Shown one piece after another: positions 35,027-61,225 of a DNA stretch of 64,000 nt. The DNA comes from Caulobacterales bacterium (GTDB lineage: Bacteria; Pseudomonadota; Alphaproteobacteria; Caulobacterales; Caulobacteraceae). The notes under the pieces are model-generated. The model searched no databases and was not told the DNA's origin. It worked only from the letters and a program-made list of their open reading frames with translations. The stretch is taken from positions 124,001 through 188,000 of the forward strand of contig JAEKKJ010000007.1 in the NCBI GenBank assembly GCA_019510435.1, given 5' to 3'. Made by a program: the position numbers and the translations under genes. Numbering within the stretch: position 1 is the first letter of the stretch; each line of letters begins with the position of its first letter.

Positions 35027-35045
35027 AAAGTTTGGCGGCAACCAA

Positions 35046-35062: not shown

Positions 35063-35063
35063 C

Positions 35064-35324
35064 ATGGACATGAAACCTCACCCTGCAGATCGCCGAGCCG
35101 AGCTCGGGCAAAGCTATTTCGTCTTGCGCCACGGCGGCGCGTCAGCCGAGCGGGCCAGCGCCGAACTGGGCCTGGCCTGCGCAAGCGGCCGCACCCAGGA
35201 GGCGCTGTTCCAGGTGCGCCGGCCCGGCAAGGGCGGCGATCCCATGCGTCCGCGGTTCGCCCGGCATGACCGGCATGTGGCGGCGACGCGCGCGGCCGGC
35301 GGCTTCCCGGCGCTGCCCCTATGA
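35064..35324 (+). CDS. hypothetical phage early protein
   Basis: 86 aa ORF divergent from the repressor, operator-proximal. Confidence 0.55.
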   Translation: MDMKPHPADRRAELGQSYFVLRHGGASAERASAELGLACASGRTQEALFQVRRPGKGGDPMRPRFARHDRHVAATRAAGGFPALPL

Positions 35325-35518
35325 GCGGGACCGACGAGGCGGCCACGCTGGTGGCCGGGGCGCTGGCGCGGCGCGGGCCCAAGGACCGCGGCCGGTTCCT
35401 GCGCGAGCTGCTGGCGCACACGGCGGCGGGGCTGGTGGTGATCGAGGGGGAGGCTGAGGCGTCGGAAGCCGTCTATCGCCTGGCCGATGCGGTGGTGGCG
35501 CGCGCATGCCGCGGGTGA
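35321..35518 (+). CDS. hypothetical protein
   Basis: 65 aa ORF, translationally overlapping with its neighbours. Confidence 0.5.
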   Translation: MSGTDEAATLVAGALARRGPKDRGRFLRELLAHTAAGLVVIEGEAEASEAVYRLADAVVARACRG

Positions 35519-36084
35519 GGGATCCGGCCCGCGAGGCGCGGGACCGCCTGCTGCGGCTGGAGCAGCGGGCCAAGGCGCGGGAGGAGGGCCAGGCGGTGGC
35601 CGAGGGCGTCGCCGAGACCGTGGCCCTGTCGCGGGCGCGGGGCTCGGCGATCGAGGCCCCGGCGGCTGGCCCCGGGCGCGGGGCCTATCGGCGGCAGGAG
35701 GGGCTGGCGTGGCTGGCGCGCAAGGGGCGGATCACCGCCGCGGCGCGGGCGGCAGGCGAGCGCTATGGCTGGGCCTATCGCCGCGCCAAGCTGGAGGGCT
35801 CGATCCGCTCGACCCTGGACGTGCGGCCCGGCGGCGGCTTTGCGGGCGCCCCGCCGCTGGAGGCGGTTCTGGCGCACGGGGAGGGGACGGAGCTGGCGCG
35901 GCGCAAGCTGGCCCAGTTCCGCGCCCGCCTGCTGCGCCAGCCGGACCTGGTGGCGGCCTGCGACCTGATCTGCGGCGAGGAGAAGACGCCGCGCGAGGCG
36001 ACGGGGGACGAGCGCGAGGCGCTGCGGCTGGAGGCGGTGCTGAAGGTGGCGCTGGATATCCTGGCGGGGGAGGAGGGGCGTTGA
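35506..36084 (+). CDS. hypothetical phage-associated protein
   Basis: 192 aa charged ORF overlapping the upstream ORF; ends immediately before the SOS box cassette. Confidence 0.6.
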   Translation: MPRVRDPAREARDRLLRLEQRAKAREEGQAVAEGVAETVALSRARGSAIEAPAAGPGRGAYRRQEGLAWLARKGRITAAARAAGERYGWAYRRAKLEGSIRSTLDVRPGGGFAGAPPLEAVLAHGEGTELARRKLAQFRARLLRQPDLVAACDLICGEEKTPREATGDEREALRLEAVLKVALDILAGEEGR

Positions 36085-36085: not shown

Positions 36086-36100
36086 GTTCGTGGTTTGTTC
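36086..36100 (+). promoter_or_regulatory. LexA/SOS box A with adjacent promoter (TTGACA-N17-TAGGGT, 36101-36129)
   Basis: GTTCGTGGTTTGTTC. Confidence 0.75.
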
Positions 36101-36212
36101 TTGACATTGGCGCGGGAATTTGGTAGGGTTCTGCCAAGATTGATGAGTGGGTCCCGACGCCCACTGTTCGCTGTCGAAGTCGTTCGCGTCGGTCTCGCTA
36201 TCGAGGGGCGCT

Positions 36213-36410
36213 TTAGCTCCCCTTAGGATTGCGCTTTTGGCGAAAGGCCTTCTTGCCCGTATTTCGCGCGACCTCGGCGGCCTTGGCTTGTGAGCGGGCC
36301 GCATCGCCCGCCGCTTTGATGGCTTCGGGGGATACTGGGCCATCGGTCGTGACGACGCTTCGGCCAATGACCTTGCCCTTGCGACGGATCGTGGCGGTAA
36401 CGCTCCCCAT
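36213..36410 (-). CDS. hypothetical small protein
   Basis: 65 aa MGSVTATIRRKGKVIGRSVVTTDGPVSPEAIKAAGDAARSQAKAAEVARNTGKKAFRQKRNPKGS. Confidence 0.4.
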   Translation of the reverse strand: MGSVTATIRRKGKVIGRSVVTTDGPVSPEAIKAAGDAARSQAKAAEVARNTGKKAFRQKRNPKGS

Positions 36411-36565
36411 GCTTCATGATATCGGCACATTCCTGTCCGCGCGACTGTGCCGCGGCCTCATTTGGCAAAGCTAGGCGCAACGCTGCGCAAGCAGTGGCGG
36501 AAGTCCGGCGCCGGCAAGACGTGGCCCTCAGCGAGGTCCGCCTCGGGACGCAATCATCTTCTTGC

Positions 36566-36697
36566 TCGTCATCAGAGGGCTTGTCCCGGTGATCCATGAA
36601 CGCCGATGCTGGTTGAAGAGGCGCGGCGCGGGTGCTGTGGGCGTCCTGCACCATCAGGTGTGCATGGGTGGCCGGGACAGGCCCGGCCATGACGAGC
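36566..36697. repeat. inverted repeat (REP-like intergenic element)
   Basis: Arms gctcgtcat...gggcttgtcccgg..ccatg and catgggtggccgggacaggcccggccatgacgagc. Confidence 0.7.
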
Positions 36698-36732
36698 TTT
36701 AGTGATTCAAGGGGTTGTTGAGATTCGCCCGC

Positions 36733-37602
36733 TCACCCCACCCCGATCGCCCTCACCTCCGCGTCGGGATAGTTCGTGCCTTCGCCCATCTCGCGGTAGC
36801 GGGCGATGTCGGCGGTGCGGGCGGCGTAGGTGCGGTCCAGGACCTCGTAGGCGTCGGGGCCGAGGATCAGGCGGCGGGGCGGGTTGGGGTCGTCGACCAC
36901 GGCGATCATGGCGGCGGCGGCCTTGGCGGGATCGCCCGGCTGGCGGCCGGCCTGGCCGTAGAGGAACTCTTCGATGGGGGCGATGACCGGGCGGTAGGCC
37001 TCGATCGGGGCCTTGGGGCGCATGTTCACGTCGCCGGCGAACTCCGTGCGGAAGTTGCCGGGCTCGACGAGGGTGGCGTGGATGCCGAAGGCGGCGACCT
37101 CGTCGGCGAGGGCCTCGGTCCAGGCCTCCAGGGCGAACTTGGAGGCGCAGTAGGGGCCGAAGCCGCCGATGGAGATCAGGCCGCCGATGCTGGTGAGGTT
37201 GAGGATGTGGCCGGCGCCCTGGGCGCGCATGGCGGGCAGGGTCGCGCGGGTCATCTCGGCGGCGGCGAAGAAGTTGAGCTCCATCTGGTCGCGCAGTTGG
37301 TCAGGGGCGAACTCCTCGACGGCGCCGAGCGAGCCGCGCCCGGCGATGTTGGCCAGGACGTCGACACGGCCGAAGCGGGCGAGGGCCTGGTCGATCCCCG
37401 CCTGGCGGGCGGCGGGGTCGGTGACGTCGAGGGCGAGGGGCAGCACGCGGTCGGGGGCGAGGGCCTGCAGCTCCGCCAGGCGTTCGCGGCGACGGGCGGC
37501 GACCACGGCGCGCTCGCCTCGCTCGATCACCGCCTGGGCCAGCGCCTGGCCGAAGCCGGCCGACGCGCCCGTGATGAACCACACCCGATCCTGTTTGGTC
37601 AT
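36733..37602 (-). CDS. SDR family oxidoreductase
   Basis: RVWFITGASAGFGQALAQAVIERGERAVVAARR...YCASKFALEAWTEAL. Confidence 0.9.
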   Translation of the reverse strand: MTKQDRVWFITGASAGFGQALAQAVIERGERAVVAARRRERLAELQALAPDRVLPLALDVTDPAARQAGIDQALARFGRVDVLANIAGRGSLGAVEEFAPDQLRDQMELNFFAAAEMTRATLPAMRAQGAGHILNLTSIGGLISIGGFGPYCASKFALEAWTEALADEVAAFGIHATLVEPGNFRTEFAGDVNMRPKAPIEAYRPVIAPIEEFLYGQAGRQPGDPAKAAAAMIAVVDDPNPPRRLILGPDAYEVLDRTYAARTADIARYREMGEGTNYPDAEVRAIGVG

Positions 37603-38039
37603 GTATGCGCCTCCGCGATTGAGCCCGCTTCCCCGGTCGGAAAGAGATGGCGGCTGATCGGTGGAAGACAACCTGGGCGTTTGCGGAAGGCGGCGGCGCA
37701 GCAGCTGGCGCGCCCACTCTGCGCCTTACATCCCATGGGCGGAGCAGGCGGGCCCGCAATCTACCATGGGATCGAAGGGGCGGTCCCTTCCTGGAGGAAG
37801 GGCGCGGAAGGGGGCTGGGTGCGGCCTCACGGCGCTCTGCAGCCTTCCGCGGCGATGGAGGAAGGTCGGGGCGGCGGTGTGGCCACGGCGACGAGGCGAT
37901 GGGCGCGGTTGGGGGCCGGCGCCGGCTGCATCGGCTGCATCTACGCGTTGCACACCACCACCCCGCCCTCCTCCATGGAGGAGGAGGTGCGGCGGCCCCT
38001 GGGAGCCGCCGCGATGGCGCTCGGAACGCCGGTCGGACC

Positions 38040-38798
38040 TCAGGCCGGCTGCGGCAGGCCGCCGTCGCGGCGGCGGCGTCGCAGGAGGGTGGCCGCGCCG
38101 CCGAAGCCGAGGATCATGAGCGCCCAGCTGGCCGGCTCGGGCGCGGCGGAGACGCGGGTGGCGGCGTCGTAGCTGACGACGCCGTCGTAGATCTTCAGGG
38201 TGTCGATCTGGCCGCCCAGGAACTCGCTGTAGCCGCCGAACTGGCGGCCGAGGCGGGTGTCCGTGCCGGTGTTGAAGTCTGTGACCTTGCCGGCGGTGAA
38301 GGCGGGCGCGGCGCCGTCGATGTAGAAGTTGAAGCCGTCGGCGCCGTTGGTGAGCAAGAGGTTGTGGAAGGCGCCGGCGCTGGGCAGGGCCACGCCGGGC
38401 GCGCCATGGGCGTCGGTGAGGCGGAAGCCCGCGCCGCCGTTCGTGCCGATGTAGAAGCCCGAGGCGCCGGAGAAGCCCTGGGAGATGATCTCGGCGATGC
38501 CGGCCTGGCTGGCGGCGATCTGGACCCGCAGCAGGACGGAGAAGTCCGCGCCGGCGTTCGGCACGATGTGCTGGCCGAACTGGACGTAGTCGTCGACGCC
38601 GTCGAGGTGCAGGACGCCGCCGGAGACGGCCGCGCCGCCCAGCAGCTGGCCGTCGGCGGAGCCGGCGTGGTCGATGACGTAGCCGCCGACGTCCGCGGAG
38701 AAGTCGTAGGCGTGGATCAGCGCCGCGGCGCTGGCGGGCGCGGCGGCCGCGAGAGCGAGCGCAGCGACAGCTGCGCCGGCGAAGACGATGGAACGCAT
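38040..38798 (-). CDS. LamG-like domain protein with PEP-CTERM sorting signal
   Basis: Signal peptide; GGVLHLDGVDDYVQFG; C-terminal AAPEPASWALMILGFGGAATLLRRRRRDG. Confidence 0.87.
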   Translation of the reverse strand: MRSIVFAGAAVAALALAAAAPASAAALIHAYDFSADVGGYVIDHAGSADGQLLGGAAVSGGVLHLDGVDDYVQFGQHIVPNAGADFSVLLRVQIAASQAGIAEIISQGFSGASGFYIGTNGGAGFRLTDAHGAPGVALPSAGAFHNLLLTNGADGFNFYIDGAAPAFTAGKVTDFNTGTDTRLGRQFGGYSEFLGGQIDTLKIYDGVVSYDAATRVSAAPEPASWALMILGFGGAATLLRRRRRDGGLPQPA

Positions 38799-38984
38799 GA
38801 CAGGAACCCCCCAAGGACTGAACGCCGCCCCAGTCCGAGCGGCCCGGGGCGTAGCGCCAGGAAAGCGCGGCTGGCCGCCGCGCGCCTCCCCCGATCGGGG
38901 GTGCGGGCGCGGCGCATGGACCCTGGCTTTCCGTGCGCCGGCTGAGCATCCTGCGCGCGGCGACGCAAAGCGCCTGGAGACCCC

Positions 38985-39578
38985 ATGGACCGCGACAGGC
39001 TGACGGCGTTCACCGACGGGGTGCTGGCCGTGATCATCACGATCATGGTGCTGGAGATGAAGCCGCCGCATGGGGCGGCGTTCGCGGACCTCGTGGCGCT
39101 GTGGCCGGTGTTCCTGAGCTATGTGCTGAGCTTCGTCTACGTGGCCATCTACTGGAACAACCACCACCACTTCTTCCACCTGGTGAAGGCGGTGGATGGC
39201 GGGATCCTGTGGGCCAACCTGCACCTCCTGTTCTGGCTGTCGACGATCCCCTTCGCCACGGCCTGGATGGGCGAGAACCACTTCGCCGCGGCGCCGACCG
39301 CGCTCTATGGCGGCTCGCTTTTGATGTCGTCGCTGGCCTGGGTGATCATGCAGGCGGCGATCATCCGGCGGCAGGGCCCGGACTCGCCCCTGGCGCAGGC
39401 CATCGGGCGGGACCTGAAGGGCAAGCTGTCGCCGTTCGTCTACCTGGGCGGCGTCGCCCTGGCCTTCGCCAGCCCCACGGCGGCGGACCTTCTGTACCTG
39501 GGCGCGGCGCTGGCGTGGCTGATCCCTGACCGCCGGGTCGAGAAGACCGTGCGCCGGGGCGGGGCGTCGGCCGGCTGA
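38985..39578 (+). CDS. TMEM175 family (DUF1211) membrane protein
   Basis: RLTAFTDGVLAVIITIMVLEMKPP...VLSFVYVAIYWNNHHHFFH. Confidence 0.9.
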   Translation: MDRDRLTAFTDGVLAVIITIMVLEMKPPHGAAFADLVALWPVFLSYVLSFVYVAIYWNNHHHFFHLVKAVDGGILWANLHLLFWLSTIPFATAWMGENHFAAAPTALYGGSLLMSSLAWVIMQAAIIRRQGPDSPLAQAIGRDLKGKLSPFVYLGGVALAFASPTAADLLYLGAALAWLIPDRRVEKTVRRGGASAG

Positions 39579-39647
39579 ACCCTACCGCGGGCCGATCGCG
39601 CAGCAGCGGCGGCGGCCCGGTTCACACAATCTGTAAGGAGTAGAGCC

Positions 39648-40199
39648 ATGGCCAGGAGTCCAGGGCGCAAGCGGGCTACGCGCAAGCTTCCGCCCGCCAA
39701 GCCGCGCGTGCAGTTTTCCGAAGCGCTGGGGGAGCGGATCTGCGAGGCGCTCTCCGCCGGGGTGCTGCTGGCCGAGCTGGCCCGGGATCCGCAGATGCCG
39801 GCGCGGTGCACGATCTACCGCTGGCGCGACCGCCATCCCGAGTTCGGCGAGAACCTGCGCATCGCCCGCGAGCTGCAGGGCGACGCCCTGGCCGAGGACG
39901 CGGTGCTGGTGGCCGACGCGGCGACGCCGCCGACCCTGGCGCAGGACAAGGTGCGGATCACCTCGCGCCTGGCCCTGGCGGCGCGGGCGGAGCGCGAGGC
40001 GGCGCGGGCGGATGCGCGGCTGGAGCGGGCGATGGCGCGGGCGGAACGGCTGGCCGCGGCCGAGCTCGCCCTGGCGGAGGCCGGCAAGCCCAAGGTGATC
40101 TACATCGCCATCCGCGACTTCGTGCCCGTGCGGACGCCGGACGGGCGGCTGATCACCCGGGAGATCCTGGCGGACGGGAGCCATATCGACCATGAGTGA
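39648..40199 (+). CDS. phage terminase small subunit-like protein
   Basis: ERICEALSAGVLLAELARDPQMPARCTIYRWRDRHPEFGENLRIARELQ; overlaps the terminase large subunit start. Confidence 0.75.
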   Translation: MARSPGRKRATRKLPPAKPRVQFSEALGERICEALSAGVLLAELARDPQMPARCTIYRWRDRHPEFGENLRIARELQGDALAEDAVLVADAATPPTLAQDKVRITSRLALAARAEREAARADARLERAMARAERLAAAELALAEAGKPKVIYIAIRDFVPVRTPDGRLITREILADGSHIDHE

Positions 40200-41523
40200 G
40201 GCGTTCCGACTGCCGCTGACCTGGGTCCCGCGCGGCTACCAGGCCGAGCTCTGGAAGCACCTGCACGGGGGCGGGCGGCGGGCCGACGTGGTGGCGCACC
40301 GGCGCTGGGGCAAGGACGAGGTGGCGCTGCATTGGACGGCGGCCTGCGCCTCCACCCGCCCGGCCACCTACTGGCACATGCTGCCCGAGGCCTCGCAGGG
40401 GAAGAAGGCGATCTGGGACGCGGTGAACCCGCACACCGGGCGGCGGCGGCTGGACGAGGCCTTCCCCGAGGCGTTCCGCGCCCGCACCAGCGAAAGCGAG
40501 ATGAAGATCGAGCTGGTCAATGGCGCGGTCTGGCAGGTGGTGGGCTCGGACAACTACGACCGGCTGGTGGGGTCCTCGCCGTTGGGGGTGGTGCTGTCGG
40601 AGTGGTCGCTGGCCAAGCCGCAGGCCTGGGAGTTCATCCGCCCGATCCTCCTAGAGAACGACGGCTGGGCGCTGTTCCTGTGGACGCCGCGGGGGCGCAA
40701 CCACGCCACGCGGGCGTTCGAGAGCCGGATGCGCGATCCGGCCTGGTTCACCGCTAAGTCGCCGGCGACCGAGACGGACGTGTTCACGCCGGAGCAGCTG
40801 GAGCGGGAAAAGGCCGAGCTGGTGGCCGAGCTGGGGTCGACGGAGGAGGGGCTGGCGCGGTTCGCCTCGGAATATCTGGTGGACTTCGATGCGGCCACGC
40901 CCGGCGCCTACTATGCGAGCCTTCTCAATGACGCGGCGGGGGCGGGCCGCATCGGGGGCGTGCCGGTGGATCCGTCGCTGCGGGTCGACACCGCCTGGGA
41001 CCTGGGCATCGACGACTATACGGCGATCTGGTTCTTCCAGCAGGTGGGGCGCGAGGTGCGGGTGGTCGACTATTTCGAGACCTCGGGCGAGGGGCTGCCG
41101 GCGGTGGTGGGCCAGGCGATCGCCGCCAAGGGCTACCTCTGGGGCGCGCACCACCTGCCGCACGACGTGATGGTGCGCGAGCTGGCGACCGGCCGCTCGC
41201 GCTACGAGACCCTGCGCTCGCTGGGGCTGTCGAACATCCAGGTGGGGACCGCCGCCGACCCCGAGGAGCGGATCAACGCCGGGCGACTGATGATCCCCAT
41301 GTGCTGGTTCGACGCCGGGCGCTGCGCCCTGGGGCTGGAGCGGCTGCGCGCCTATCGCAAGCGCTGGAGCCGGGCGACGGCGAGCTATGCGGGACCGCTG
41401 CACGACCAGGCCAGCCACGGCGCGGACGCGTTCGGCGAGTTCGCCATGAACCGCCTGGGCGGGGCGGGGCCGCGGCGCGAGCCCGTCCGGCGGCATATGG
41501 GCGAACTCTCCTGGTTAAGCTGA
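40192..41523 (+). CDS. phage terminase large subunit
   Basis: 443 aa; VVAHRRWGKDEVALHWTAACA (Walker A-like), VVLSEWSLAKPQAWEFIRPIL, nuclease-like DTAWDLGIDDYTAIWFFQ. Confidence 0.88.
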   Translation: MSEAFRLPLTWVPRGYQAELWKHLHGGGRRADVVAHRRWGKDEVALHWTAACASTRPATYWHMLPEASQGKKAIWDAVNPHTGRRRLDEAFPEAFRARTSESEMKIELVNGAVWQVVGSDNYDRLVGSSPLGVVLSEWSLAKPQAWEFIRPILLENDGWALFLWTPRGRNHATRAFESRMRDPAWFTAKSPATETDVFTPEQLEREKAELVAELGSTEEGLARFASEYLVDFDAATPGAYYASLLNDAAGAGRIGGVPVDPSLRVDTAWDLGIDDYTAIWFFQQVGREVRVVDYFETSGEGLPAVVGQAIAAKGYLWGAHHLPHDVMVRELATGRSRYETLRSLGLSNIQVGTAADPEERINAGRLMIPMCWFDAGRCALGLERLRAYRKRWSRATASYAGPLHDQASHGADAFGEFAMNRLGGAGPRREPVRRHMGELSWLS

Positions 41524-41595
41524 ACGGTTGAGAGGTCGTTAAGCGCGATCGGATACCGTTGGCATGTCGGGGGACGCCGTGGTGGGAGACCGCGG

Positions 41596-41718
41596 ATGCC
41601 GGATTTCGTGCGGCACGCCCTGACGCTGGCTGAGGCCCATCCCATGGAGGCGGTGGCCCTGGCGGTCGTGATCGTCCTCTACCTCAACCTGATGACCTCG
41701 GACCCGCGGTCGTACTGA
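41596..41718 (+). CDS. 40-aa single-TM protein
   Basis: MPDFVRHALTLAEAHPMEAVALAVVIVLYLNLMTSDPRSY; below the ORF-track cut-off. Confidence 0.4.
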   Translation: MPDFVRHALTLAEAHPMEAVALAVVIVLYLNLMTSDPRSY

Positions 41719-41756
41719 GCGCCCCTTGACGGCAAATATTACGCGTGTACCAATCA

Positions 41757-41777
41757 GTTTCTACAGATGTAAGAAAC
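41757..41777. promoter_or_regulatory. BlaI/MecI/CopY-type operator
   Basis: GTTTC-TACA-GA-TGTA-AGAAAC with TACANNTGTA core (41762-41771), downstream of TTGACG-N16-TACCAA and before the ATG at 41791. Confidence 0.6.
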
Positions 41778-41790
41778 CGGGAGGATCGAC

Positions 41791-42294
41791 ATGCGTGGAT
41801 CGAGATCGGCCGTGGCCGTGGCGACGGGGTTTGTGGCGGCGTTTGTGATGGCGGCGGGACGGGCGGTGGCGGAGCCCCTGACCTGGGCGCCGCCGGCAGA
41901 GCGCCTGTCGGTGCTTGGGGTGCTGGCCCATGCCACCGGGGCGGTGCAGGCGGCGTTCGCGATCCTGATCGCGGCGGCGGTGGCGGCGGTGGCCGTCTGG
42001 GCGATGAGCCTGGGTAAGGTCGGCGGCGGCGACGCCAAGGGCGTGGCGGTGGCGCTGGGCCGCCTGCGGATCGTGCGCTCCGGCGGGGCGCCGCTGGGCC
42101 TGCTGGCGGCGAGCTACACCCTGTTCGCCTGCTTCCTGGGCATGGCCAATGTGCGTCCCGCGCCGTCGCTGACCGTGCTGGCGCCCGGCTTCGCCGAGGC
42201 GGCGCTGGCGGTGATGCTGGGCCTCCTGGCGACGACGGTGGCGGTGGTGTGCGAGCGCCACCTGGAGGGCCGGATCCGACGCGCCGCCGCCTGA
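41791..42294 (+). CDS. membrane protein, MotA/TolQ/ExbB-like
   Basis: Signal/TM segments; C-terminal GFAEAALAVMLGLLATTVAVVCERHLEGRI resembles the ExbB/MotA last TM. Confidence 0.5.
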   Translation: MRGSRSAVAVATGFVAAFVMAAGRAVAEPLTWAPPAERLSVLGVLAHATGAVQAAFAILIAAAVAAVAVWAMSLGKVGGGDAKGVAVALGRLRIVRSGGAPLGLLAASYTLFACFLGMANVRPAPSLTVLAPGFAEAALAVMLGLLATTVAVVCERHLEGRIRRAAA

Positions 42295-42695
42295 TGACCG
42301 CGCCGCCGCCGATCACTGGAGGCCCGCCGATCACCGGGGCCGAGAGCCAGGTCATGGACGTGGTCTGGGCCGCGGACGGCGCCGGGGTGGGTGAGATCCT
42401 GGCGGCGGTGGGCCCCGCCAACGGCTGGGGCGAGGCGACCGTCCGCACCCTGATCCACCGGCTGGTGCGCAAGAAGGCGCTGTGCTCCGAGCGGCGGCGC
42501 GGCCTGGTGGTCTATGCGCCGCTGGTCCGGCGCGAGGCCTGGCTGACCGCCGAGAGCCAGGGCCTGCTGGACCGCCTGTTCGGTGGCCAACTCGCGCCCC
42601 TGGTAGCCCACCTGGCGCGCGAGCGGGTGCTGTCGCCGCAGGACCGGGCGCGCCTGCGCCGGCTGGTGGCAGAGCTGGATGCGGAGGAGGAGTGA
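42294..42695 (+). CDS. BlaI/MecI/CopY family transcriptional regulator
   Basis: ITGAESQVMDVVWAADGAGVGEILAAV...GEATVRTLIHRLVRKKAL...YAPLVRREAWLTAESQGLLDRLFGGQLAPLVAHLARE. Confidence 0.88.
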   Translation: MTAPPPITGGPPITGAESQVMDVVWAADGAGVGEILAAVGPANGWGEATVRTLIHRLVRKKALCSERRRGLVVYAPLVRREAWLTAESQGLLDRLFGGQLAPLVAHLARERVLSPQDRARLRRLVAELDAEEE

Positions 42696-42705
42696 GGGGG
42701 GAGAT

Positions 42706-42720
42706 GTTCGTGTTTTGTTC
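42706..42720 (+). promoter_or_regulatory. LexA/SOS box B with adjacent promoter (TTGACA-N17-TAGGTT, 42721-42749)
   Basis: GTTCGTGTTTTGTTC. Confidence 0.8.
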
Positions 42721-42875
42721 TTGACATTCGGTCCGGATTTTGGTAGGTTTCTGTCGGCGTCGAAGAGTGCCCCGCCATCGGGGGCTGAGCCTCGGGCGTC
42801 TATGGCATGTCCACCGGCCTTGTCGTCATGACGAGCGCGGGCGCCACCTTTTGACTTCCTTGCTGGAGATTCGAG

Positions 42876-43637
42876 GTGCCTTCGGATCCGAAAGGTCCCT
42901 TTTCCGTGCCCGATCTTCTGGCTGAGGCCTGGAACGAGATGGTGGGGAAGAACCGCCTGCTCCAGGCGAAGAACGATCCGCTTGCGAACAGCGCCGCGCC
43001 GAACGCGAAGCCGCCGTTGACTGCGGCCGGGCCTGAGGATTCCCAGCGCGCGGCAGCGCGAGACTACGGCGCGCACTATCTGATGGACCTCGTGCCGCGA
43101 GGCGAAGGCACGACCAGCTACGACGCGAGCTATCGCAATGGCGACGGCAGCGGCCGATACTACCCGTCTGGTTGGAAGAAGCCGACCGAGCTCACCATCG
43201 ACGAGGCGATCCGGATGGCGCCTGACATGACCCGGGCTGCTGGCAACTACGCGGTGGGTCTTTATCAGTTCAAGCCAGGTCTTCTTGCCGACGCAAAGCG
43301 GCGCATGAACCTGACGGGCTCGGAAGTCCTGACTCCGGCGATGCAGGACCGGATTATGCGCGATCGGCTCACCTATCGCGGCTATGATCGCTATCTCGCA
43401 AGCCCCAAGCAGCCCGCGGACCTAGCGAAGTTTCAAGACAACCTCGTCAACGAATGGCCGTCGTTGCCGAACTCCAACGCCGCGCCGCAATTCGACGGTG
43501 TGCGGACGCGTGTGCCGCGTGTGACTCCGATGGCGTTCCAGGCGGCGATTGCGCAGGCGGCGCAGGAGGCGGACCGAATCCGGGACAGTTACATCGACGC
43601 GGGCCAGGAACCCCCGCCGGGCGGCCGCTGGCGCTGA
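42876..43637 (+). CDS. putative lysozyme-like/GH104-like muramidase or structural lysozyme
   Basis: LMDLVPRGEGTTSYDASYRNGDG...TIDEAIRMAPDMTRAAGNYAVGLYQFKPGLLADAKRRM; GTG start. Confidence 0.55.
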   Translation: MPSDPKGPFSVPDLLAEAWNEMVGKNRLLQAKNDPLANSAAPNAKPPLTAAGPEDSQRAAARDYGAHYLMDLVPRGEGTTSYDASYRNGDGSGRYYPSGWKKPTELTIDEAIRMAPDMTRAAGNYAVGLYQFKPGLLADAKRRMNLTGSEVLTPAMQDRIMRDRLTYRGYDRYLASPKQPADLAKFQDNLVNEWPSLPNSNAAPQFDGVRTRVPRVTPMAFQAAIAQAAQEADRIRDSYIDAGQEPPPGGRWR

Positions 43638-43642
43638 GCGCC

Positions 43643-44179
43643 CTAAGGTCGCGCGGGACGAGGGGACCGATAGCCGGCGGGCGGCTTGACCCAGCACTCC
43701 CAGCGGATGTCGCTGGAGCAGAGGGGAAGGTTCGGAGGCTTCACCGGCCTGTTGCGCTCTTGCTCGGCCAGCTGGCGCAGCCGGCGCTGGTCGCGGGGGT
43801 CGGCGAAGTCATTCTTCGCGAGATCGTCGGCCTCATAGGCGGGCAGCCATTCCAGCCTCTCGAGGCCCCGGGCCCGCCCGTCGACTACGGAGATCACCCT
43901 TACCATTCGTCCATCGCGTCGACGCGCGAAGAGGAAGTCGCAAGCGTAGGGACCGCAATTGTACACCTCGTGATAGCGGCGGCAGACCTCGGCGTGGCCG
44001 AAGCAGACATCGTCCTTGGCGTAGCCGCGGAAGGCGATCGGGCGAAAGCCCGCTGCGGCCAAGGCTGAGCGGACCGTGGAATAGGGTGTGAGCGGCCGCA
44101 GCTTGGGCAGGCCGTCGGCGGCGCGCGCCAGACTCGCGCTCGCACAGACCGCGACAAGAACGGCAGCGAACAGGCGCAT
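43643..44179 (-). CDS. secreted Cys-containing hypothetical protein (paralogue 1)
   Basis: Signal peptide MRLFAAVLVAVCASASLARA; VRSALAAAGFRPIAF...VCFGHAEVCRRYHEVYNCGPYACDFLFARRRDG. Confidence 0.7.
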   Translation of the reverse strand: MRLFAAVLVAVCASASLARAADGLPKLRPLTPYSTVRSALAAAGFRPIAFRGYAKDDVCFGHAEVCRRYHEVYNCGPYACDFLFARRRDGRMVRVISVVDGRARGLERLEWLPAYEADDLAKNDFADPRDQRRLRQLAEQERNRPVKPPNLPLCSSDIRWECWVKPPAGYRSPRPARP

Positions 44180-44236
44180 GGTTGGCCTCCGACCGGAGGA
44201 AACTAGCGCGGGCTCAGGACGGACGCCAGGGATAAT

Positions 44237-44251
44237 GTTCGTGATTTGTTC
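44237..44251 (+). promoter_or_regulatory. LexA/SOS box C
   Basis: GTTCGTGATTTGTTC, 58 bp upstream of the minus-strand gene starting at 44179 and upstream of the + ORF at 44331. Confidence 0.75.
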
Positions 44252-44330
44252 TTAATTCTCTCGGGCGATTGTGTACTTTGCAAATAGGCCAAGCTGAGGC
44301 GCAGGATCGGCGCGCCTGAAGGGGGGTGCG

Positions 44331-44480
44331 ATGTTGACGGCGATCATTGTGGTGGCGCTGGCGGCCGACGACCTGGACACAGCGCGGCTGACAAAGGCCG
44401 AGGTGGCCTATCAAGATTGCCTGCTCGATGCCGCAACCAAATATGACGACCGCACGTCGGACGCCGCTTCGGTTAACCCC
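44331..44480 (+). pseudogene. truncated secreted hypothetical ORF interrupted by a transposase remnant
   Basis: MLTAIIVVALAADDLDTARLTKAEVAYQDCLLDAATKYDDRTSDAASVNPA then out-of-context sequence antisense to IS1595-like coding. Confidence 0.45.
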
Positions 44481-44715
44481 GCCGTCAGGCCTCCGGTACG
44501 TGAGGCGCTTACCGACGGCGCCCACCAGCGCGCGCGGCCCGCTCGGTGTCCTCGACGCCCGCGGCCGACCGGTTGGAATACTGGAAGTCGATCTCGGCCA
44601 GATAGCGGTGCAGATGCTTCTTGGGGCAGCGCTGATACACGCCGCGCATGCCGCGCTTGAAGATCGAGAACGAGCCTTCGACCGTGTTCGTGTGAACGAG
44701 CGGATGACTGCGCCC
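44480..44715 (-). mobile_element. IS1595-family transposase C-terminal remnant (frameshifted)
   Basis: HTNTVEGSFSIFKRGMRGVYQRCPKKHLHRYLAEIDFQYSNRSAAGVEDTERA, continuing in another frame as GAVGKRLTYRRPD. Confidence 0.8.
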
Positions 44716-44777
44716 GCCGCCGCGGGCTGAGCTTCCGGCCTCCTTCACAGGCCTTGTGCTCAAGGGCTAGTAGCTGC

Positions 44778-45302
44778 TCATCGCCGCCGGGACGGGCGCG
44801 CTCCAGGCTGCGCGGCGCGGCAGTTCGTGACGACGGTCGCTGAGCAGGGCGGCAGCGGCTTGATGAAGCTGACGCGGCGTCCATCGGGCAGGCGCAGAAG
44901 GAGGCCGTCGAGATCGGTGGATTTCGCGGGTCTCGCGTCGGCGTAGCGAACGTGCCGAAGGCTGGGCGGCGCGTAGTCGTCCGGAACGCCCCGCGTGAAG
45001 ACCAGCCAGTAGGCGTTGTCGGCACGCTGCCGGAACAGGAAATAGCACGCGGGCGCATCGGCGGCGCACGAGACCCGTTCGGGGAAGGCGCGGCAGATCC
45101 TGTCGGCGTCCAGGCAACGATCGCGGCCACCGTCGCCGTCGTCCTGAGCAAGCACCTTGATGGGCTCGAAGCCCTGGTCGATCAGCTGGCGTCGCGCTGC
45201 GGCATAGGCGGGCGCGCCGGCGATGTGCAGTGCGCGCGCCCTGGCGTGGGCGCCGCTGGCTGCCAGGGCGAACAGGCCGATGGCGATGAAGACTGCGCGC
45301 AT
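44778..45302 (-). CDS. secreted Cys-containing hypothetical protein (paralogue 2)
   Basis: Signal peptide MRAVFIAIGLFALAASGAHA; ARRQLIDQGFEPIKV...DRCLDADRICRAFPERVSCAADAPACYFLFRQRAD aligns with paralogue 1. Confidence 0.7.
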   Translation of the reverse strand: MRAVFIAIGLFALAASGAHARARALHIAGAPAYAAARRQLIDQGFEPIKVLAQDDGDGGRDRCLDADRICRAFPERVSCAADAPACYFLFRQRADNAYWLVFTRGVPDDYAPPSLRHVRYADARPAKSTDLDGLLLRLPDGRRVSFIKPLPPCSATVVTNCRAAQPGARPSRRR

Positions 45303-45360
45303 TGTCGAGGCCTCCGAGGTCTCGAGCGTAGCGACCCCGGGGCTGGGCGTCAGGGAATTT

Positions 45361-45375
45361 GTTCATCGTTTGTTC
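45361..45375 (+). promoter_or_regulatory. LexA/SOS box D with adjacent TTGACA element
   Basis: GTTCATCGTTTGTTC; 59 bp upstream of the minus gene at 45302 and upstream of the + portal gene. Confidence 0.75.
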
Positions 45376-45535
45376 TTGACATTCGCGCGGGAATTTGAGA
45401 GAGTAATGCCAGCGTTGATGAGTGCGCGCGCCGCGGCGGGCTGAGGCTCTGGCGCTGCGACGTGGTTGGGTGGACCGGCGCTGATGGCGTGCGGGACCGC
45501 CGCCCGCCCGTCGTTCCACCTCTCGTTTCAAGCTG

Positions 45536-47515
45536 TTGTTTCACCTGCTGTTCAATCCGCTGTTCAATCCGCGGTTCAATCCGCCGGGCCTGCTCGCGCG
45601 GGCCCTTTGCCATGGGGCGTCCATCTTGTCCGACGACGATATCCTGGAGGTGGCGCGCGCCGCCTTCGAGCTGGCGGCTGACGCCGAGGCGGAGAACCGG
45701 CGCGAGGCGCTGGACGACCTGCGCTTCGCGCGGCTGGGCGAGCAGTGGCCCGACAAGGTGCGGCGCGAGCGGGAGCGGGAGGGGCGGCCGTGCCTGACCA
45801 TCAACCGCATGCCGGCCTTCATCCGCCAGGTGGTCAACGACGCGCGGCAGAACAAGCCGGCGATCACGGTGCATCCGGTGGACGACGGGGCCGACCGCGA
45901 GACCGCCGAGGTGATGAGCGGCCTGATCCGCCACATCGAGCAGAGCTCGGACGCGGAGGTCGCCTATGACACGGCGCTGGATTTCGCGGTCACGGGCGGG
46001 TTCGGCTATTTCCGGATCAACACCCGCTGGGCCGACGACGACAGCTTCGACCAGGACCTGGCGATCGAGCGGGTGGCCAACCCGTTCTCGGTCTATGGCG
46101 ACCCCGATTCCACGGCCGCCGACAGCGCCGACTGGAACACCGCCTTCGTCATCGACACCGTGCCCAAGGCGCAGTTCGAGGCGCGGTGGAAGGGCGCCGA
46201 CCCGGTGGACTGGGAGGCCGACGACTACGGCCGGCTGAGCGGGCCGTGGCTGGACGGCGAGCGGGTGCTGGTGGCCGAATACTGGCGGCGCGAGGCGGTG
46301 AGCCGGACCATCCTGGCCCTGTCGGACGGCCAGGTGGTGGAGGAGGCGGTCTACAAGGCCCAGAAGGCCATGTTCGACGCCCTGGGGGTGTCGGTCGTGG
46401 GTCGGCCGCGGCAGACCGCGAGCCACAAGGTCACCCAGCGGATCCTGACCGGCGCCGAGGTGCTGGAGACCGTGGACTGGTCGGGCCGCTACATCCCGAT
46501 CGTGCCGGTCTATGGCGACGAGGTGATGATCGACGGGCGCCGGCGGCTGAGGAGCCTGGTGCGGGACGCCAAGGATCCGCAGCGGATGTTCAACTACTGG
46601 CGGACGACCTCGACGGAGCTGGTGGCGCTGGCCCCCAAGGCGCCGTTCATCGGGCGGCGCGGGGCGTTCGAGACCGACAGCGCCAAGTGGGCGACGGCCA
46701 ACACCCAGACCCATGCCTATATCGAGTACGACGGGCCCGAACCGCCGATCCGCCAGTCTTTCGCCGGTCCGCCGGCCGGGGCCATGCAGGAGGCGCTCTC
46801 GGCTTCGGACGACATGAAGTCGATCATGGGGCTGTACGACGCCAGCCTGGGCGCACGGTCGAACGAGACCTCGGGCCGGGCGATCATGGCGCGGCAGCGG
46901 GAAGGGGACGTCTCCACCTTCCACTACATCGACAACCTTAGCCGGGCGATCCGGCACGCGGGGCGGATCCTGCTGGACCTGATCCCGCGGGTCTATTCCA
47001 GCCCGCGGGTGGTGCGAGTGCTGGGGGCGGATGGCAAGACGCAGGGTGTGGGCGTGGGGGCGGCGCCTGGGGCCGCCGATCCGGCCGGGCCGCTGCGCAA
47101 GGTGGAGAAGGTCTATGACCTGACGGCCGGCCGCTACGACCTGACCGTGAGCTCGGGCCCCAGCTTCACCAGCCGCCGGGAAGAGGCGGCGACCCAGATG
47201 ATCGAGCTGATCCGCGCCTATCCGGCGGCCGCGCCGGTGATCGGCGACCTCTTGGCGCGGAACCTGGATTGGCCGGGAGCCGACGAGATCGCGACGCGGC
47301 TTTCGGCCCTGTTGCCGCCACAGGTGAAGGGCGTGGCGCCGGGGGCGCAGCAGGCCCAGGCCCAGCTGGCCCAGGTGGGCCAGGCGCTGGCGGCGGCCAA
47401 GGCCGAGATCGCCGCCCTGCGCCAGGACCAGGCGAACGCGGCCCGCAAGCTGGAGATCGAGGCCTTCGAGGCCGAGACCAATCGGATGCGGGCGATGGGC
47501 GCGCGCACCGCCTGA
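45536..47515 (+). CDS. phage portal protein (P22-type)
   Basis: REREREGRPCLTINRMPAFIRQVVNDARQNKPAITVHPVDDGAD...NETSGRAIMARQREGDVSTFHYIDNLSRAIRHAGRILLDLIP; true start probably TTG at 45626. Confidence 0.9.
   Translation: MFHLLFNPLFNPRFNPPGLLARALCHGASILSDDDILEVARAAFELAADAEAENRREALDDLRFARLGEQWPDKVRREREREGRPCLTINRMPAFIRQVVNDARQNKPAITVHPVDDGADRETAEVMSGLIRHIEQSSDAEVAYDTALDFAVTGGFGYFRINTRWADDDSFDQDLAIERVANPFSVYGDPDSTAADSADWNTAFVIDTVPKAQFEARWKGADPVDWEADDYGRLSGPWLDGERVLVAEYWRREAVSRTILALSDGQVVEEAVYKAQKAMFDALGVSVVGRPRQTASHKVTQRILTGAEVLETVDWSGRYIPIVPVYGDEVMIDGRRRLRSLVRDAKDPQRMFNYWRTTSTELVALAPKAPFIGRRGAFETDSAKWATANTQTHAYIEYDGPEPPIRQSFAGPPAGAMQEALSASDDMKSIMGLYDASLGARSNETSGRAIMARQREGDVSTFHYIDNLSRAIRHAGRILLDLIPRVYSSPRVVRVLGADGKTQGVGVGAAPGAADPAGPLRKVEKVYDLTAGRYDLTVSSGPSFTSRREEAATQMIELIRAYPAAAPVIGDLLARNLDWPGADEIATRLSALLPPQVKGVAPGAQQAQAQLAQVGQALAAAKAEIAALRQDQANAARKLEIEAFEAETNRMRAMGARTA
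45548..45583 (+). repeat. three tandem 12-bp repeats
   Basis: CTGTTCAATCCG CTGTTCAATCCG CGGTTCAATCCG. Confidence 0.8.
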
Positions 47516-47528
47516 TGCGCCATCGGGC

Positions 47529-48149
47529 TCAGGCGCGGCGGAGGCTCCAGGCGCGAACGGCCTCGAGCGTGAGCTTGATGGCGCCGAAGAGGGCGCCGCC
47601 GCCGAAGGCGAGCGCCAGGCCGCCGGCGACCATGTCCAGGTCCTCGCGTCCCGGGCGGGTGAGTTCGATGCGCGCGATAACGGCCAGCAAGGCGAGGGCG
47701 AGGAGGAGCCAGACGACCGCGCCGGCCACGAGCAGGCGCAGGCCGCGACCCGCGGCCCGCATCGGCGGCCAGTCCATGGCGACGATGGCGAAGGCCCCGG
47801 CGCCCCAGACGTAGAAGAACGGGAAGGCCACGCTGAGGCCCTGGCGACTGAGCAGCCAAAGCCCGGTGGGTGGCAGGAACAGCAGCCAGGGCGCCGCGCC
47901 GAGCGCCAGCACCGCGGCCGCCCGGGGCGAGCGGTTTCCACCGGCGCGCCAGGTCCGGAAGACCATCCAGGGCGTCATCAACGCCACGCAGAACGCCCAG
48001 AGCGCGAACGTGCCGCCCAGCAGCTCGCCGTCCTTCTGGAAGAGGGCGACGGGATAGAGGGCGATCGGCAGCAGCGCCACACGCTCCAACCGGGAATCGG
48101 CGTCCGACGAGACGGCCGCGGGCGGCGGCGGTTCGAAATAGTTCTTCAT
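47529..48149 (-). CDS. multi-TM hypothetical membrane protein
   Basis: MKNYFEPPPPAAVSSDADSRLERVALLPIALYPVALFQKDGELLGGTFALWAFCVALMTPWMVF... Confidence 0.6.
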   Translation of the reverse strand: MKNYFEPPPPAAVSSDADSRLERVALLPIALYPVALFQKDGELLGGTFALWAFCVALMTPWMVFRTWRAGGNRSPRAAAVLALGAAPWLLFLPPTGLWLLSRQGLSVAFPFFYVWGAGAFAIVAMDWPPMRAAGRGLRLLVAGAVVWLLLALALLAVIARIELTRPGREDLDMVAGGLALAFGGGALFGAIKLTLEAVRAWSLRRA

Positions 48150-48155
48150 TTGTTC
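48141..48155 (-). promoter_or_regulatory. LexA/SOS box E overlapping the start codon of the membrane protein gene
   Basis: GTTCTTCATTTGTTC (minus strand GAACAAATGAAGAAC). Confidence 0.6.
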
Positions 48156-48201
48156 AAGGCTACCGCATTCGCGGCAGCCGACAAGACTGTGGGAGGGGCG
48201 T

Positions 48202-48648
48202 TTGCCGCAATATCGGTCTGAAACGGCCAAGGAGCCGTCCGAGCTGGTCGGCGGAGGCATGCTGGAGACCGGCGGCAAGCTGATGGGCGCCGGCGCCGAG
48301 CACATGCTGAAGGCCGCGCCCAAGGCGACCCGGTTCGTGCTGAAGCGCGTCGCGGGGGCGCCGGGCTATGCCTATGACATCACCAATGTGTTGACCGCGA
48401 AGGACAGGACGCGCGCGCTGTTCGGGCTTGCAGGCGAAGCGGCCGGCGGATTTGCCGGCGGCGCCCTGGGCGCGGCCGCGGGCGGCGTGGCGGCGCCTAT
48501 CGGCGCGGTGCTGGGCTCGGCGGCGGGCGACGAGCTGGCCACGGAATTCTACGACGACCACCAGGCCGCCATCCGCCGCGCGCAGGACGCCACCAGCCAG
48601 TGGATCGCCCAGCGGCAGGCGGACGTGCGCCGCAAGCTCGGCCTGTGA
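48202..48648 (+). CDS. hypothetical glycine-zipper protein
   Basis: AGEAAGGFAGGALGAAAGGVAAPIGAVLGSAAGDELA. Confidence 0.5.
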   Translation: MPQYRSETAKEPSELVGGGMLETGGKLMGAGAEHMLKAAPKATRFVLKRVAGAPGYAYDITNVLTAKDRTRALFGLAGEAAGGFAGGALGAAAGGVAAPIGAVLGSAAGDELATEFYDDHQAAIRRAQDATSQWIAQRQADVRRKLGL

Positions 48649-48691
48649 CAGCGCGACGCGACCGCATCGAAATCTCCACAAGGGAATGATC

Positions 48692-49489
48692 ATGGACAAG
48701 GCCCAAGAGACCGACGACGCCGCGCATGAGGCGGCGGACACCCTGCCCGACGGTGCGGACGAGGCGCCGGACGACGCCTTCGAGGTGGAGCTGGACGGCC
48801 AGGTGCACAGCCTGCCCGGCGCGCTGAAGGGCGCGTTCCTGCGCCAGGCCGACTATACCCGCAAGACCCAGGAGCTGGCCGAGCACCGGCGGGCCCTGGA
48901 GGCGGACCGCCAGGCGCTGGCGGCCCATGCCCAGGACCTGGCGAACGGCCGCGAGGATCGCCTGCGCCTGGCGGCCCTGGACCATCAGCTGGCGGAGCTG
49001 CAGGGCGTGGACTGGAAGGCCTATGCCGCACAGGACCCGCACGGGGCGCAGGCGCTGTGGGCGCGGTTCCAGGCGATGGCGGAGGCGCGCGAGCAGCTGG
49101 CCCAGGCCGTGGCCCATGCGCAGGAGCGCGATCATCTGCACGCCGCGCGCAACCACGCACAGAAGATGGCCGACACCGGCCAGGCCTTGCGGCGGGAGAT
49201 CGACGGCTGGTCGCCGGAGGTCGCGGCCAAGCTGGTGGACTACGCCCAGGCGTTCGGCATCCGCCCGGACGAACTGGCCCAGACGGCCGACGCGCGGCTG
49301 TGGAAGCTGCTGCACAAGGGCTGGCGGGCCGATGCGGCCGGGCAGGGTGCGGCCTCGGGCGCGGCCGTCGCGGTCCGGCCGGCAGTGACCTTGGCCGGGA
49401 GCGGGGCCGGGGCGGGTGGCGTCCGGGACGAGCTGGGCACCAAGGAGTGGATGCGCCGGCGCAACGACCAGCTGGCGCGGGCGCGCTGA
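48692..49489 (+). CDS. phage scaffold-like protein
   Basis: Acidic N-terminus, long coiled-coil (FLRQADYTRKTQELAEHRRALEADRQALAAHAQ), position between portal and coat. Confidence 0.7.
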   Translation: MDKAQETDDAAHEAADTLPDGADEAPDDAFEVELDGQVHSLPGALKGAFLRQADYTRKTQELAEHRRALEADRQALAAHAQDLANGREDRLRLAALDHQLAELQGVDWKAYAAQDPHGAQALWARFQAMAEAREQLAQAVAHAQERDHLHAARNHAQKMADTGQALRREIDGWSPEVAAKLVDYAQAFGIRPDELAQTADARLWKLLHKGWRADAAGQGAASGAAVAVRPAVTLAGSGAGAGGVRDELGTKEWMRRRNDQLARAR

Positions 49490-50163
49490 TGGCCAGGTTC
49501 CTGGATCTTCCGCCCGGCTCGGGCACGGCGCTAAGCCCGCCGCTGTTCCTGACGCCGCCAGAGCAGGCCTCGCTCGCCCGCGCCCCGCGATATCCGCCGC
49601 GCCAGGGCGCAGTTCGGCTGGTGTCCACCGCGCCGGGCTGCCCGCCCGCCCAAGGGCTTCCGGCGCGGGGCGCCGGGACCGATGTCACCGTTCGGGCCTA
49701 TCCCGTCCGCAACGTGGGGGGGAGGGCCGACCACATGTACGTCACCTTCGACGATGGCTCGAACCGGTTCATCGCGCGCGGTGGCCCTTCGGCGGACGGC
49801 GCGGGCATGCTGGGCGGCCTGCGCGCCGACAACCTGACCGTGACGGGGCGTGTCGACCCCGCCGACCGTAGTCCGGACGCGCGCGGCGGCGGACGGCTGA
49901 TGTTCGAGGGGTTCCTTCCCGGGCAAAGCGCTGTGGAGGCGGTCCAGCCCGCAAAGGATCACGCCGCCGGCGTGAACCGCGGGCGCAACGACTATCGCCG
50001 CGACTCCTCGTCCAACAGCTTTGCGGCCGATGTGGTCGAGAGCCTGTTCGGTTGCCGGGTCGGTGACGATCGGACCTGGGGCGGTGACACTGTGCTTCGC
50101 GAGGACGCCCCGGGCCTGCGCCAGCCTGACCTTCAGGCGTTCAAGGATCCGCGGTTGTTCTGA
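49489..50163 (+). CDS. hypothetical phage protein
   Basis: 224 aa ORF coupled to the scaffold stop; YVTFDDGSNRFIARGGPS. Confidence 0.55.
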   Translation: MARFLDLPPGSGTALSPPLFLTPPEQASLARAPRYPPRQGAVRLVSTAPGCPPAQGLPARGAGTDVTVRAYPVRNVGGRADHMYVTFDDGSNRFIARGGPSADGAGMLGGLRADNLTVTGRVDPADRSPDARGGGRLMFEGFLPGQSAVEAVQPAKDHAAGVNRGRNDYRRDSSSNSFAADVVESLFGCRVGDDRTWGGDTVLREDAPGLRQPDLQAFKDPRLF

Positions 50164-50528
50164 TCCCCGCGACGCTGGCCGTCCAAGGACGCCTGGGACA
50201 TGCGCATGAGAATGACCACAGCGCCCAGGCCAGAGGCGATCAGCAAGGCCGTCGTCGGCCCGGCCACGGTGAGGAACCCGAGGACCGCGGTATCGTCCTT
50301 GCTGGCGTCGGCGAAGGCCGAAACCAGCAGGACCAGCGGAGCCACGGCCGGAACCCAGACCGCGAGCAGGGCCCGCCAGAGCGGAGGCTGGCTGCGGGCC
50401 GCGGCGATCACCCACCAGATGGCCCCCGCGCCGTAGGCCGCCGCGCCCCAAGTGGGCGACCCGAACCCGGCCCACGCGAGCGCGGCGCCGGCGGCGAGCG
50501 CAAGCCCAGGTCCAATGTAGTGTCGCAT
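50133..50528 (-). CDS. multi-TM hypothetical membrane protein
   Basis: MRHYIGPGLALAAGAALAWAGFGSPTWGAAAYGAGAIWWVI...; four hydrophobic segments. Confidence 0.6.
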   Translation of the reverse strand: MRHYIGPGLALAAGAALAWAGFGSPTWGAAAYGAGAIWWVIAAARSQPPLWRALLAVWVPAVAPLVLLVSAFADASKDDTAVLGFLTVAGPTTALLIASGLGAVVILMRMSQASLDGQRRGDQNNRGSLNA

Positions 50529-50547
50529 CGCGGCGCGTCCTGGCGGC

Positions 50548-50562
50548 GTTCTTTAATTGTTC
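50548..50562 (-). promoter_or_regulatory. LexA/SOS box F
   Basis: GTTCTTTAATTGTTC, 20 bp upstream of the minus gene start at 50528. Confidence 0.75.
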
Positions 50563-61202: not shown

Positions 61203-61225
61203 TCCGAACCCTCAGGAACATCGAC

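Follow-up and report, generated by a model that had tools for sequence, protein, structure and literature searches.

The stretch examined here, called the window throughout, is a 64-kb piece of a Caulobacteraceae genome that contains a P22-like phage element. Searches with Pfam and PHROGs identified a P22-like gene set comprising an Sf6-type terminase small subunit (TerS), a P22 portal protein, a scaffold, a P22 coat protein, an SU10 adaptor, and a further virion protein. Direct repeats of the form GTTC-N7-GTTC are spread among these genes, and the analysis points to an old, domesticated phage cluster whose late promoters and cargo genes are likely under the control of the host SOS repressor LexA. 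The regulatory and virion genes of the element are as follows.

34340 to 34984, minus strand: rep, a 214-amino-acid (aa) repressor with helix-turn-helix (HTH) and S24-peptidase domains, of RogA-like architecture, with VGANP at the cleavage site
35064 to 35518, plus strand: g35064 and g35321, small genes of the regulatory region, divergent from rep and in conserved order
35506 to 36084, plus strand: g35506, a distant DUF6456 (GafZ/GafA-type) protein by Foldseek and hhalign, candidate antiterminator
39648 to 41523, plus strand: terminase small subunit (Sf6-like, PF20901) and large subunit (TerL), the latter assigned from position and phrog_2472
45629 to 47515 (reading frame opens at 45536), plus strand: P22-like portal protein (Pfam P22_portal, E 1.5e-203)
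48692 to 49489, plus strand: scaffolding protein (phrog_3927), with the C-terminal motif RDELGTKEWMRRRNDQ at about 49424 to 49486, recognized from the C termini of relatives
50703 to 51896, plus strand: P22-like coat protein (Pfam P22_CoatProtein, E 2.6e-40)
52028 to 52663, plus strand: SU10-type adaptor (Pfam SU10_adaptor, E 3.1e-29)
58010 to 60682, plus strand: virion structural protein (phrog_3287) and a conserved downstream virion gene

The window was scanned for exact GTTC-N7-GTTC matches, with 100 dinucleotide shuffles of the same 64 kb as the chance control. Eight matches were found, compared with a shuffle mean of 1.01 (standard deviation, 0.93; maximum, 4), in agreement with an earlier estimate of about one chance match made from the letters of the window (here, the sequence-only reading). 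All seven boxes listed in that reading (36086, 42706, 44237, 45361, 48141, 50548, and 32662) are present; they are AT-rich, lie on the plus strand, and conform to the longer pattern GTTC-N5-TTGTTC. More boxes had been thought possible, and there is one more exact match, at 12920, but it is GC-rich, lies on the minus strand (GTTCTGGCCGCGTTC), and is probably due to chance. The intergenic or start-codon placement first ascribed to the boxes needed correction: the 36086 box begins 2 nucleotides past the stop codon of g35506, the 48141 box spans a minus-strand ATG, and the 44237 and 50548 boxes lie 20 to 60 bp upstream of minus-strand genes. Three boxes (36086, 42706, and 45361) run straight into a TTGACA −35 element and form part of a larger predicted promoter, termed the late-promoter module.

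36086 to 36150, plus strand: late-promoter module 1, with box 36086 to 36100, −35 TTGACA 36101 to 36106, GC spacer, −10 TAGGGT 36124 to 36129, and conserved transcript start
42706 to 42770, plus strand: late-promoter module 2, with box 42706 to 42720, −35 42721 to 42726, and −10 TAGGTT 42744 to 42749
45361 to 45425, plus strand: late-promoter module 3, upstream of portal, with box 45361 to 45375, −35 45376 to 45381, and −10 GAGAGT 45399 to 45404
44237 to 44251, plus strand: LexA box upstream of the minus-strand gene 43643 to 44179 and of a truncated plus-strand gene at 44331
48141 to 48155, plus strand: LexA box covering the ATG of the minus-strand gene 47529 to 48149; a related gene in genome G011 has a start box
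50548 to 50562, plus strand: LexA box 20 bp upstream of the minus-strand gene 50133 to 50528 and 140 bp upstream of coat
32662 to 32676, plus strand: LexA box GTTCTTGTTTTGTTC, outside the phage genes, from exact match and matrix scan; target gene not assignable

A matrix scan, which the sequence-only reading had proposed as a check (there with shuffled controls), ranked its seven boxes first: with a box matrix trained solely on other species, they scored 19.9 to 29.4, the next site scored 15.1, and simulated maxima were 8 to 14.7. The 32662 box is the top-scoring one in the window and has no counterpart at that place in relatives. Across the whole genome (5.1 Mb), GTTC-N7-GTTC occurs 118 times versus 33 for a reversed control, and the exact string GTTCN7GTTCTTGAC occurs four times, three of them inside the phage element.

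The boxes are very probably operators of the host LexA (as predicted binding sites), because the recA, lexA, and radC genes of the host have the same box. The genome holds a single match to the LexA DNA-binding family (C32:20414-20602), and a box (GTTCTCTAGGCGTTC) begins 40 bp upstream of it; recA (on C5) has a box (GTTCGCAAGATGTTC) 82 bp ahead of its start, and radC is also preceded by one. A box was found upstream of recA in 30 of 32 sampled species. GTTCN7GTTC is the published LexA motif of Caulobacter, with sites including GTTCttgttatGTTC (PMC12700426), so that the motif had been correctly named from the outset. Could the repeats instead serve a regulator encoded by the element (rep or g35064) and resemble the SOS box by convergence? 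The fixed orientation of the boxes and their conservation together with the element would suit such a regulator, and in a second clade of elements (clade B) the rep-g35064 spacer has a LexA-type box, GTTC-ACTGTAT-GTTC, over the rep/g35064 promoter. However, the motif is identical to that at recA, lexA, and radC; G020, which lacks rep, still has boxes; and the corresponding spacer of the window (34985 to 35063) has no box, holding instead CTGTAG...CTACAG palindromes that are candidate rep operators. On these grounds we judge an own-regulator origin very unlikely. A separate sequence, GTTCATTCGTGGTTC, recurs in the same genome at C8:290759, 290979, and 291200 (about 220-bp spacing), at C1:454939, and at C35:270903; these copies are a repeat family and not a LexA-like box.

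The boxes are strongly oriented across the genus Phenylobacterium. In 24 full elements (554 kb), 83 exact boxes share the strand of the virion genes and 5 lie opposite, while a reversed-pattern control gave 7 and simulation about 12 on both strands together; in 73 Phenylobacterium-type contigs (1,293 kb), the counts are 227 and 8. Other P22-like elements (55 to 74% portal identity, 864 kb) have 32 versus 36 boxes, and box studding is therefore a trait of the Phenylobacterium-type lineage, not of P22-like elements at large. Chance or a GC artefact as the source of the boxes is ruled out by the shuffles, the element simulation, the matrix scan, and the strand counts.

The boxes are of two kinds, late-promoter modules (about half) and cargo-gene boxes, a division missed by the sequence-only reading, which had rightly supposed that accessory genes, and perhaps structural genes, have boxes. 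The module spans ∼60 bp and consists of the LexA box, TTGAC directly after it, a spacer of 17 bp that contains CGCGCGCG and becomes AT-rich toward its end, and a −10 element of the form TAnnnT or GAnnnT; an A seven bases past the −10 is strongly conserved, as are the first ∼25 transcribed bases. A second matrix, built from other species with the box and −35 excluded so that it covered the part downstream of the −35, scored 46.8 at 45361, 42.5 at 36086, and 29.7 at 42706, compared with 9.6 for the next site and a simulated maximum of 12.1. In the 24 full elements, modules lie in the g35506-terL interval (20), at most 0.8 kb upstream of portal (11), in the rest of the terL-portal interval (5), just past portal (3), and further on (1), with at least one module in 20 of the 24; in seven genomes, a copy lies 5 to 59 bp past the end of g35506. 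Most boxes outside modules mark the start of a cargo gene, which may be on either strand. A fourth full module of the same genome (C1:183021; L032:1501-2665) lies outside the element, ahead of a gene for a 333-aa modular protein that has parts in common with element cargo in G004, G031, G027, G058, and G067; its C terminus looks HNH/GHH nuclease-like by eye only, and it has no Pfam match.

The arrangement of modules recalls the lambdoid phages, in which the late promoter pR' lies directly past the antiterminator gene Q. Here too, a promoter stands right after an antiterminator-like gene, and the spacer and initially transcribed bases are conserved. Unlike pR', however, the module has a LexA box before the −35 and occurs in several copies, and g35506 has no sequence match to Q.

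The element occupies one chromosomal site, which is marked by host genes on both sides.

31470 to 32585, plus strand: cysE (serine acetyltransferase, Pfam SATase_N) and an adjoining gene that we take to be DUF3126-like, the left host anchor; left flank shared by at least 12 species
33661 to 34248, minus strand: SOS-response-associated peptidase (SRAP) gene (Pfam SRAP), left edge of the element; same place in most relatives
62224 to 62802, minus strand: DUF2239 gene, right anchor; right flank in about 25 genomes

Near the right edge, 61177 to 61657 bears an endolysin (M15) label, and a piece at 63027 to 63416, just outside the element, resembles the N-terminal part of a tyrosine integrase; both were assigned by eye only.

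In at least 12 species, the element lies between cysE-DUF3126(-SRAP) and, contig permitting, DUF2239. The genes always come in the same order: rep, g35064, g35321, g35506, cargo, terS, terL, cargo, portal, cargo, scaffold, cargo, coat, cargo, adaptor, and virion genes. Portal was found in 44 of 101 Phenylobacterium genomes, normally as a single copy, and portal matches of 74 to 83% identity occur in several dozen records named as Phenylobacterium or Caulobacteraceae. The rep gene is commoner than the virion genes and is found also outside the genus. Protein distances of portal and recA were correlated (Mantel r = 0.68, p = 0.0005; cysE versus recA, 0.50), and the ratios of nonsynonymous to synonymous substitution rates for terL, portal, and coat in the closest pairs were mostly 0.04 to 0.26. 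Tyrosine integrases were present in all 20 genomes tested, and none lay inside any of the 20 elements. Because of the shared locus, the portal-recA agreement, the purifying selection, and the lack of an internal integrase, the element is best described, on this comparative evidence, as an ancient, vertically inherited, integrase-less, domesticated cluster of P22-like type that resembles a gene transfer agent (GTA), rather than as the prophage that it had first been called.

An ordinary temperate prophage, possibly active and relying on host LexA for additional or primary repression, could mimic vertical inheritance by repeated integration at one site. The virion set is complete and is accompanied by a repressor and lysis-like genes, related sequences are present in IMG/VR, and phages repressed by LexA are known: in GIL01, host LexA reportedly binds phage promoters directly, so that SOS induces phage genes (PMC4551915, PMC6182141). 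The element would share with GIL01 the direct placement of LexA on phage promoters, here as predicted sites. However, GIL01 is described as a linear plasmid-like Bacillus phage with LexA sites in its early promoter P1, whereas the element is chromosomal and integrase-less and has boxes on many late and cargo promoters. A prophage also fits poorly with the lack of internal integrases noted above (0 of 20 elements), with a single copy per genome, with a portal tree that agrees with recA, with graded decay at one locus, and with a repressor that is 69 to 93% identical genus-wide and thus not immunity-diverse; no attachment-site gene was seen, attachment repeats having been searched for nonexhaustively. 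We regard this alternative as rather unlikely.

The graded decay raises the alternative of a decaying prophage remnant in which boxes and promoters are leftovers with no present function. At the same locus, G041, G028, G099, and G003 retain rep to terL without portal, G052 retains rep alone, G034 and G029 retain SRAP alone, G043 and G004 have further deleted versions, and G082 has a clean cysE-DUF3126-DUF2239 junction with the element absent. Insertion sequence-like and truncated pieces near 44.5 kb and an internal stop in portal in a few genomes would likewise suit a remnant. Set against this are the purifying selection between close pairs, the genus-wide conservation of the regulatory module up to the first transcribed bases, and the intact reading frames of most complete elements; we consider a mere remnant unlikely.

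The two regulators of the domesticated cluster were characterized further. In all rep homologues that were read, the Ser and Lys dyad is kept, and V-G-A-N/D or V-G-G-N replaces the Ala-Gly cleavage pair. Rep therefore probably has no direct means of sensing RecA and may even be blind to damage. Because rep lacks the usual cleavage site, the LexA boxes would supply the damage input, and the suggestion that the genes answer to LexA "rather than only" to the prophage repressor was too weak. For g35506, the AlphaFold model (pLDDT score, 79.8) had a DUF6456 phage protein as its top Foldseek match (E 8e-4, probability 1.00), and a profile of 34 homologues aligned with DUF6456 proteins in hhalign at 81% probability (E 1.2e-5; controls, 0.1 to 0.3%). 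It had no Pfam match, the PF20057 cutoff not being reached, and no match in the PDB by sequence or fold. No canonical GafZ (PF20057) was found in the same genome; PF20057 did match Caulobacter vibrioides among control genomes. Thus, g35506 is a candidate distant relative of DUF6456 (GafZ-type) proteins and a putative antiterminator.

The following mechanism is proposed. LexA would repress two sets of targets. One is a conserved late promoter, with its box abutting the −35, that recurs in several places (downstream of g35506, ahead of portal, and ahead of cargo genes); the other is the starts of individual cargo genes. Damage to the DNA would lead RecA to inactivate LexA and so release all boxed promoters at once. 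The g35506 protein would engage the GC-rich palindrome that lies between the −35 and the −10 and enable polymerase to read across the 15- to 25-kb virion/cargo region, while rep, apparently uncleavable, would control the supply of g35506. A captured phage particle, along with cargo that may be packed inside, thus appears to be under the direct command of the cell's DNA damage alarm. Intrinsic terminators lend no support to the proposed antitermination: matches between the module and the virion genes were weak and fewer than in shuffles.

We consider it likely that host LexA operators are embedded in an ancient, vertically inherited, selected, integrase-less P22-like cluster, with LexA blocking late promoters and cargo starts. 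Several points weigh against this view. LexA occupancy, SOS induction, antitermination, particle production, and cargo loading are all predictions from the DNA. The g35506-DUF6456 link is one of fold and profile similarity only. None of the module promoters was found by a consensus promoter scan, the −10 elements being weak, and the full module is missing from 4 of the 24 full elements. Clade B elements have DUF2239 but no cysE on the left, and in two genomes the nearest tyrosine integrases lie ∼5 to 10 kb beyond the conserved block. No replication gene was matched among the window proteins scanned, in a search that was not exhaustive and did not extend to other elements. Lastly, only 44% of genus genomes retain portal, and the element is therefore dispensable.

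The closest known parallel is the Caulobacter GTA, CcGTA (PMC9632790, PMC11150451). There, RogA is a 213-aa repressor of gafYZ without cleavage residues (PMC9632790), and GafZ is an antiterminator that depends on a GC palindrome located between the −35 and −10 elements (PMC11150451). The element resembles CcGTA as a vertically inherited phage cluster without an integrase, in its DUF6456-type protein, and in having a main promoter whose −35 and −10 are separated by a GC palindrome. Rep agrees with RogA in length (about 213 aa), HTH and S24 architecture, and missing cleavage residues, a comparison that leaves orthology aside; its position divergent from the g35064/g35321/g35506 genes is the only sign of gafYZ-type repression. 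In contrast, CcGTA has an RcGTA-type head-tail, whereas P22-like portal, coat, and scaffold and an SU10 adaptor are present here; the main promoters are repeated with LexA boxes, the regulators adjoin the structural genes, and there are many cargo genes. To our knowledge, the known alphaproteobacterial GTAs are of RcGTA type or Bartonella type. The features expected of a GTA are thus found as regards vertical inheritance and the lack of an integrase but not as regards an RcGTA-like head-tail cluster, and the element, known here from its genes alone, is not filed as a GTA. In the literature searched, there was no GTA with direct LexA promoters and no report linking Phenylobacterium with a GTA. 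Through an SOS operator on the promoters of a P22-like cluster found genus-wide, phage-particle genes would be coupled directly to DNA damage, and when and why hosts fire domesticated phages becomes testable with mitomycin C in cultured Phenylobacterium, a soil bacterium.

The remaining genes of the element are cargo and accessory genes.

36213 to 39578: accessory insert between g35506 and terS, with a small gene, a short-chain dehydrogenase/reductase (SDR) enzyme, a PEP-CTERM protein, and a membrane protein; interval variable in relatives
41791 to 42695, plus strand: MotA/ExbB-like membrane gene and BlaI/MecI-type regulator, a recurring accessory pair
42876 to 43637, plus strand: peptidoglycan hydrolase-like cargo protein with modular N terminus (phrog_90 endolysin, E 1e-8; homologues)
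43643 to 44179, minus strand: secreted Cys-rich protein, candidate immunity protein
44778 to 45302, minus strand: second secreted protein of the same family
47529 to 48149, minus strand: membrane protein, ATG within LexA box
50133 to 50528, minus strand: small membrane protein

A piece at 44509 to 44763 that by eye only resembles an IS1595-type transposase end cuts the plus-strand gene behind the 44237 box.

The hydrolase-like gene lies behind module 42706 and is convergent with the gene for the secreted Cys-rich protein, a pairing found in seven loci that suggests an effector and its immunity protein. A model of the secreted partner (pLDDT 71, moderate) gave no PDB match and no known inhibitor fold. 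Cargo N termini are common to proteins with differing C termini; that of the hydrolase is 70% identical in L127 and L130, whose C termini differ, so that a shared N terminus with a variable C-terminal enzyme domain, as in polymorphic toxins, is found for this protein. Pfam assigned mostly no family to cargo proteins, except for phage lysozyme and a serum amyloid A-like domain, the latter (PF00277, E 4e-26) in an open reading frame (ORF) behind the module at 9140 of the G076 element.

Some cargo proteins carry an end like that of the scaffold. A hidden Markov model (HMM) of the last 32 residues of scaffolds (84 variants) matched nine non-scaffold ORFs at E < 1 (best, 3e-4; best shuffled, 3.6). 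All nine lie on the plus strand with a LexA box 18 to 278 bp upstream, compared with 10% of other ORFs (Fisher p 1e-9), and 15 control HMMs from other protein ends gave 0 to 3 boxed matches each. The tag HMM detected no canonical tag in the window's own cargo proteins; the window hydrolase has the same N terminus as proteins from L127, in which the HMM finds the tag, and from L130, in which the motif pattern finds it. In P22, the C-terminal HTH of the scaffold is essential for assembly, and scaffold-fused cargo is loaded inside the capsid (PMC9962691). Since the nine cargo proteins have the scaffold C-terminal motif and P22 scaffold fusions load cargo, these data suggest that tagged cargo may be loaded into the capsid; unlike the engineered fusions, the motif here is natural and short. 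MuF polymorphic toxins are modular temperate-phage proteins with variable toxin-like ends and have been proposed to travel in virions (PMC5576092). The cargo proteins are likewise phage borne and modular with variable ends, but a MuF domain was not detected in them; its place is taken by a scaffold-like motif, and each has a LexA box.

More tentatively, a damage-triggered, domesticated P22-like capsid might carry tagged, LexA-boxed effectors into neighbouring cells while secreted partners protect the producer; the effectors would possibly be modular peptidoglycan hydrolases and nuclease-like and other domains. If true, such an effector capsid would be the natural equivalent of P22 nanocages made by engineering, and if scaffold-like tags load cargo, a natural protein-delivery capsid would be of practical use.

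Two stand-alone, multi-repeat Sf6 TerS-like proteins (PF20901) are encoded elsewhere in the same genome, at C1:256957 (L007) and C8:260736 (L029), each with a LexA box ∼30 bp upstream. These genes are far from the phage cluster and are possibly dispersed parts of the same system.

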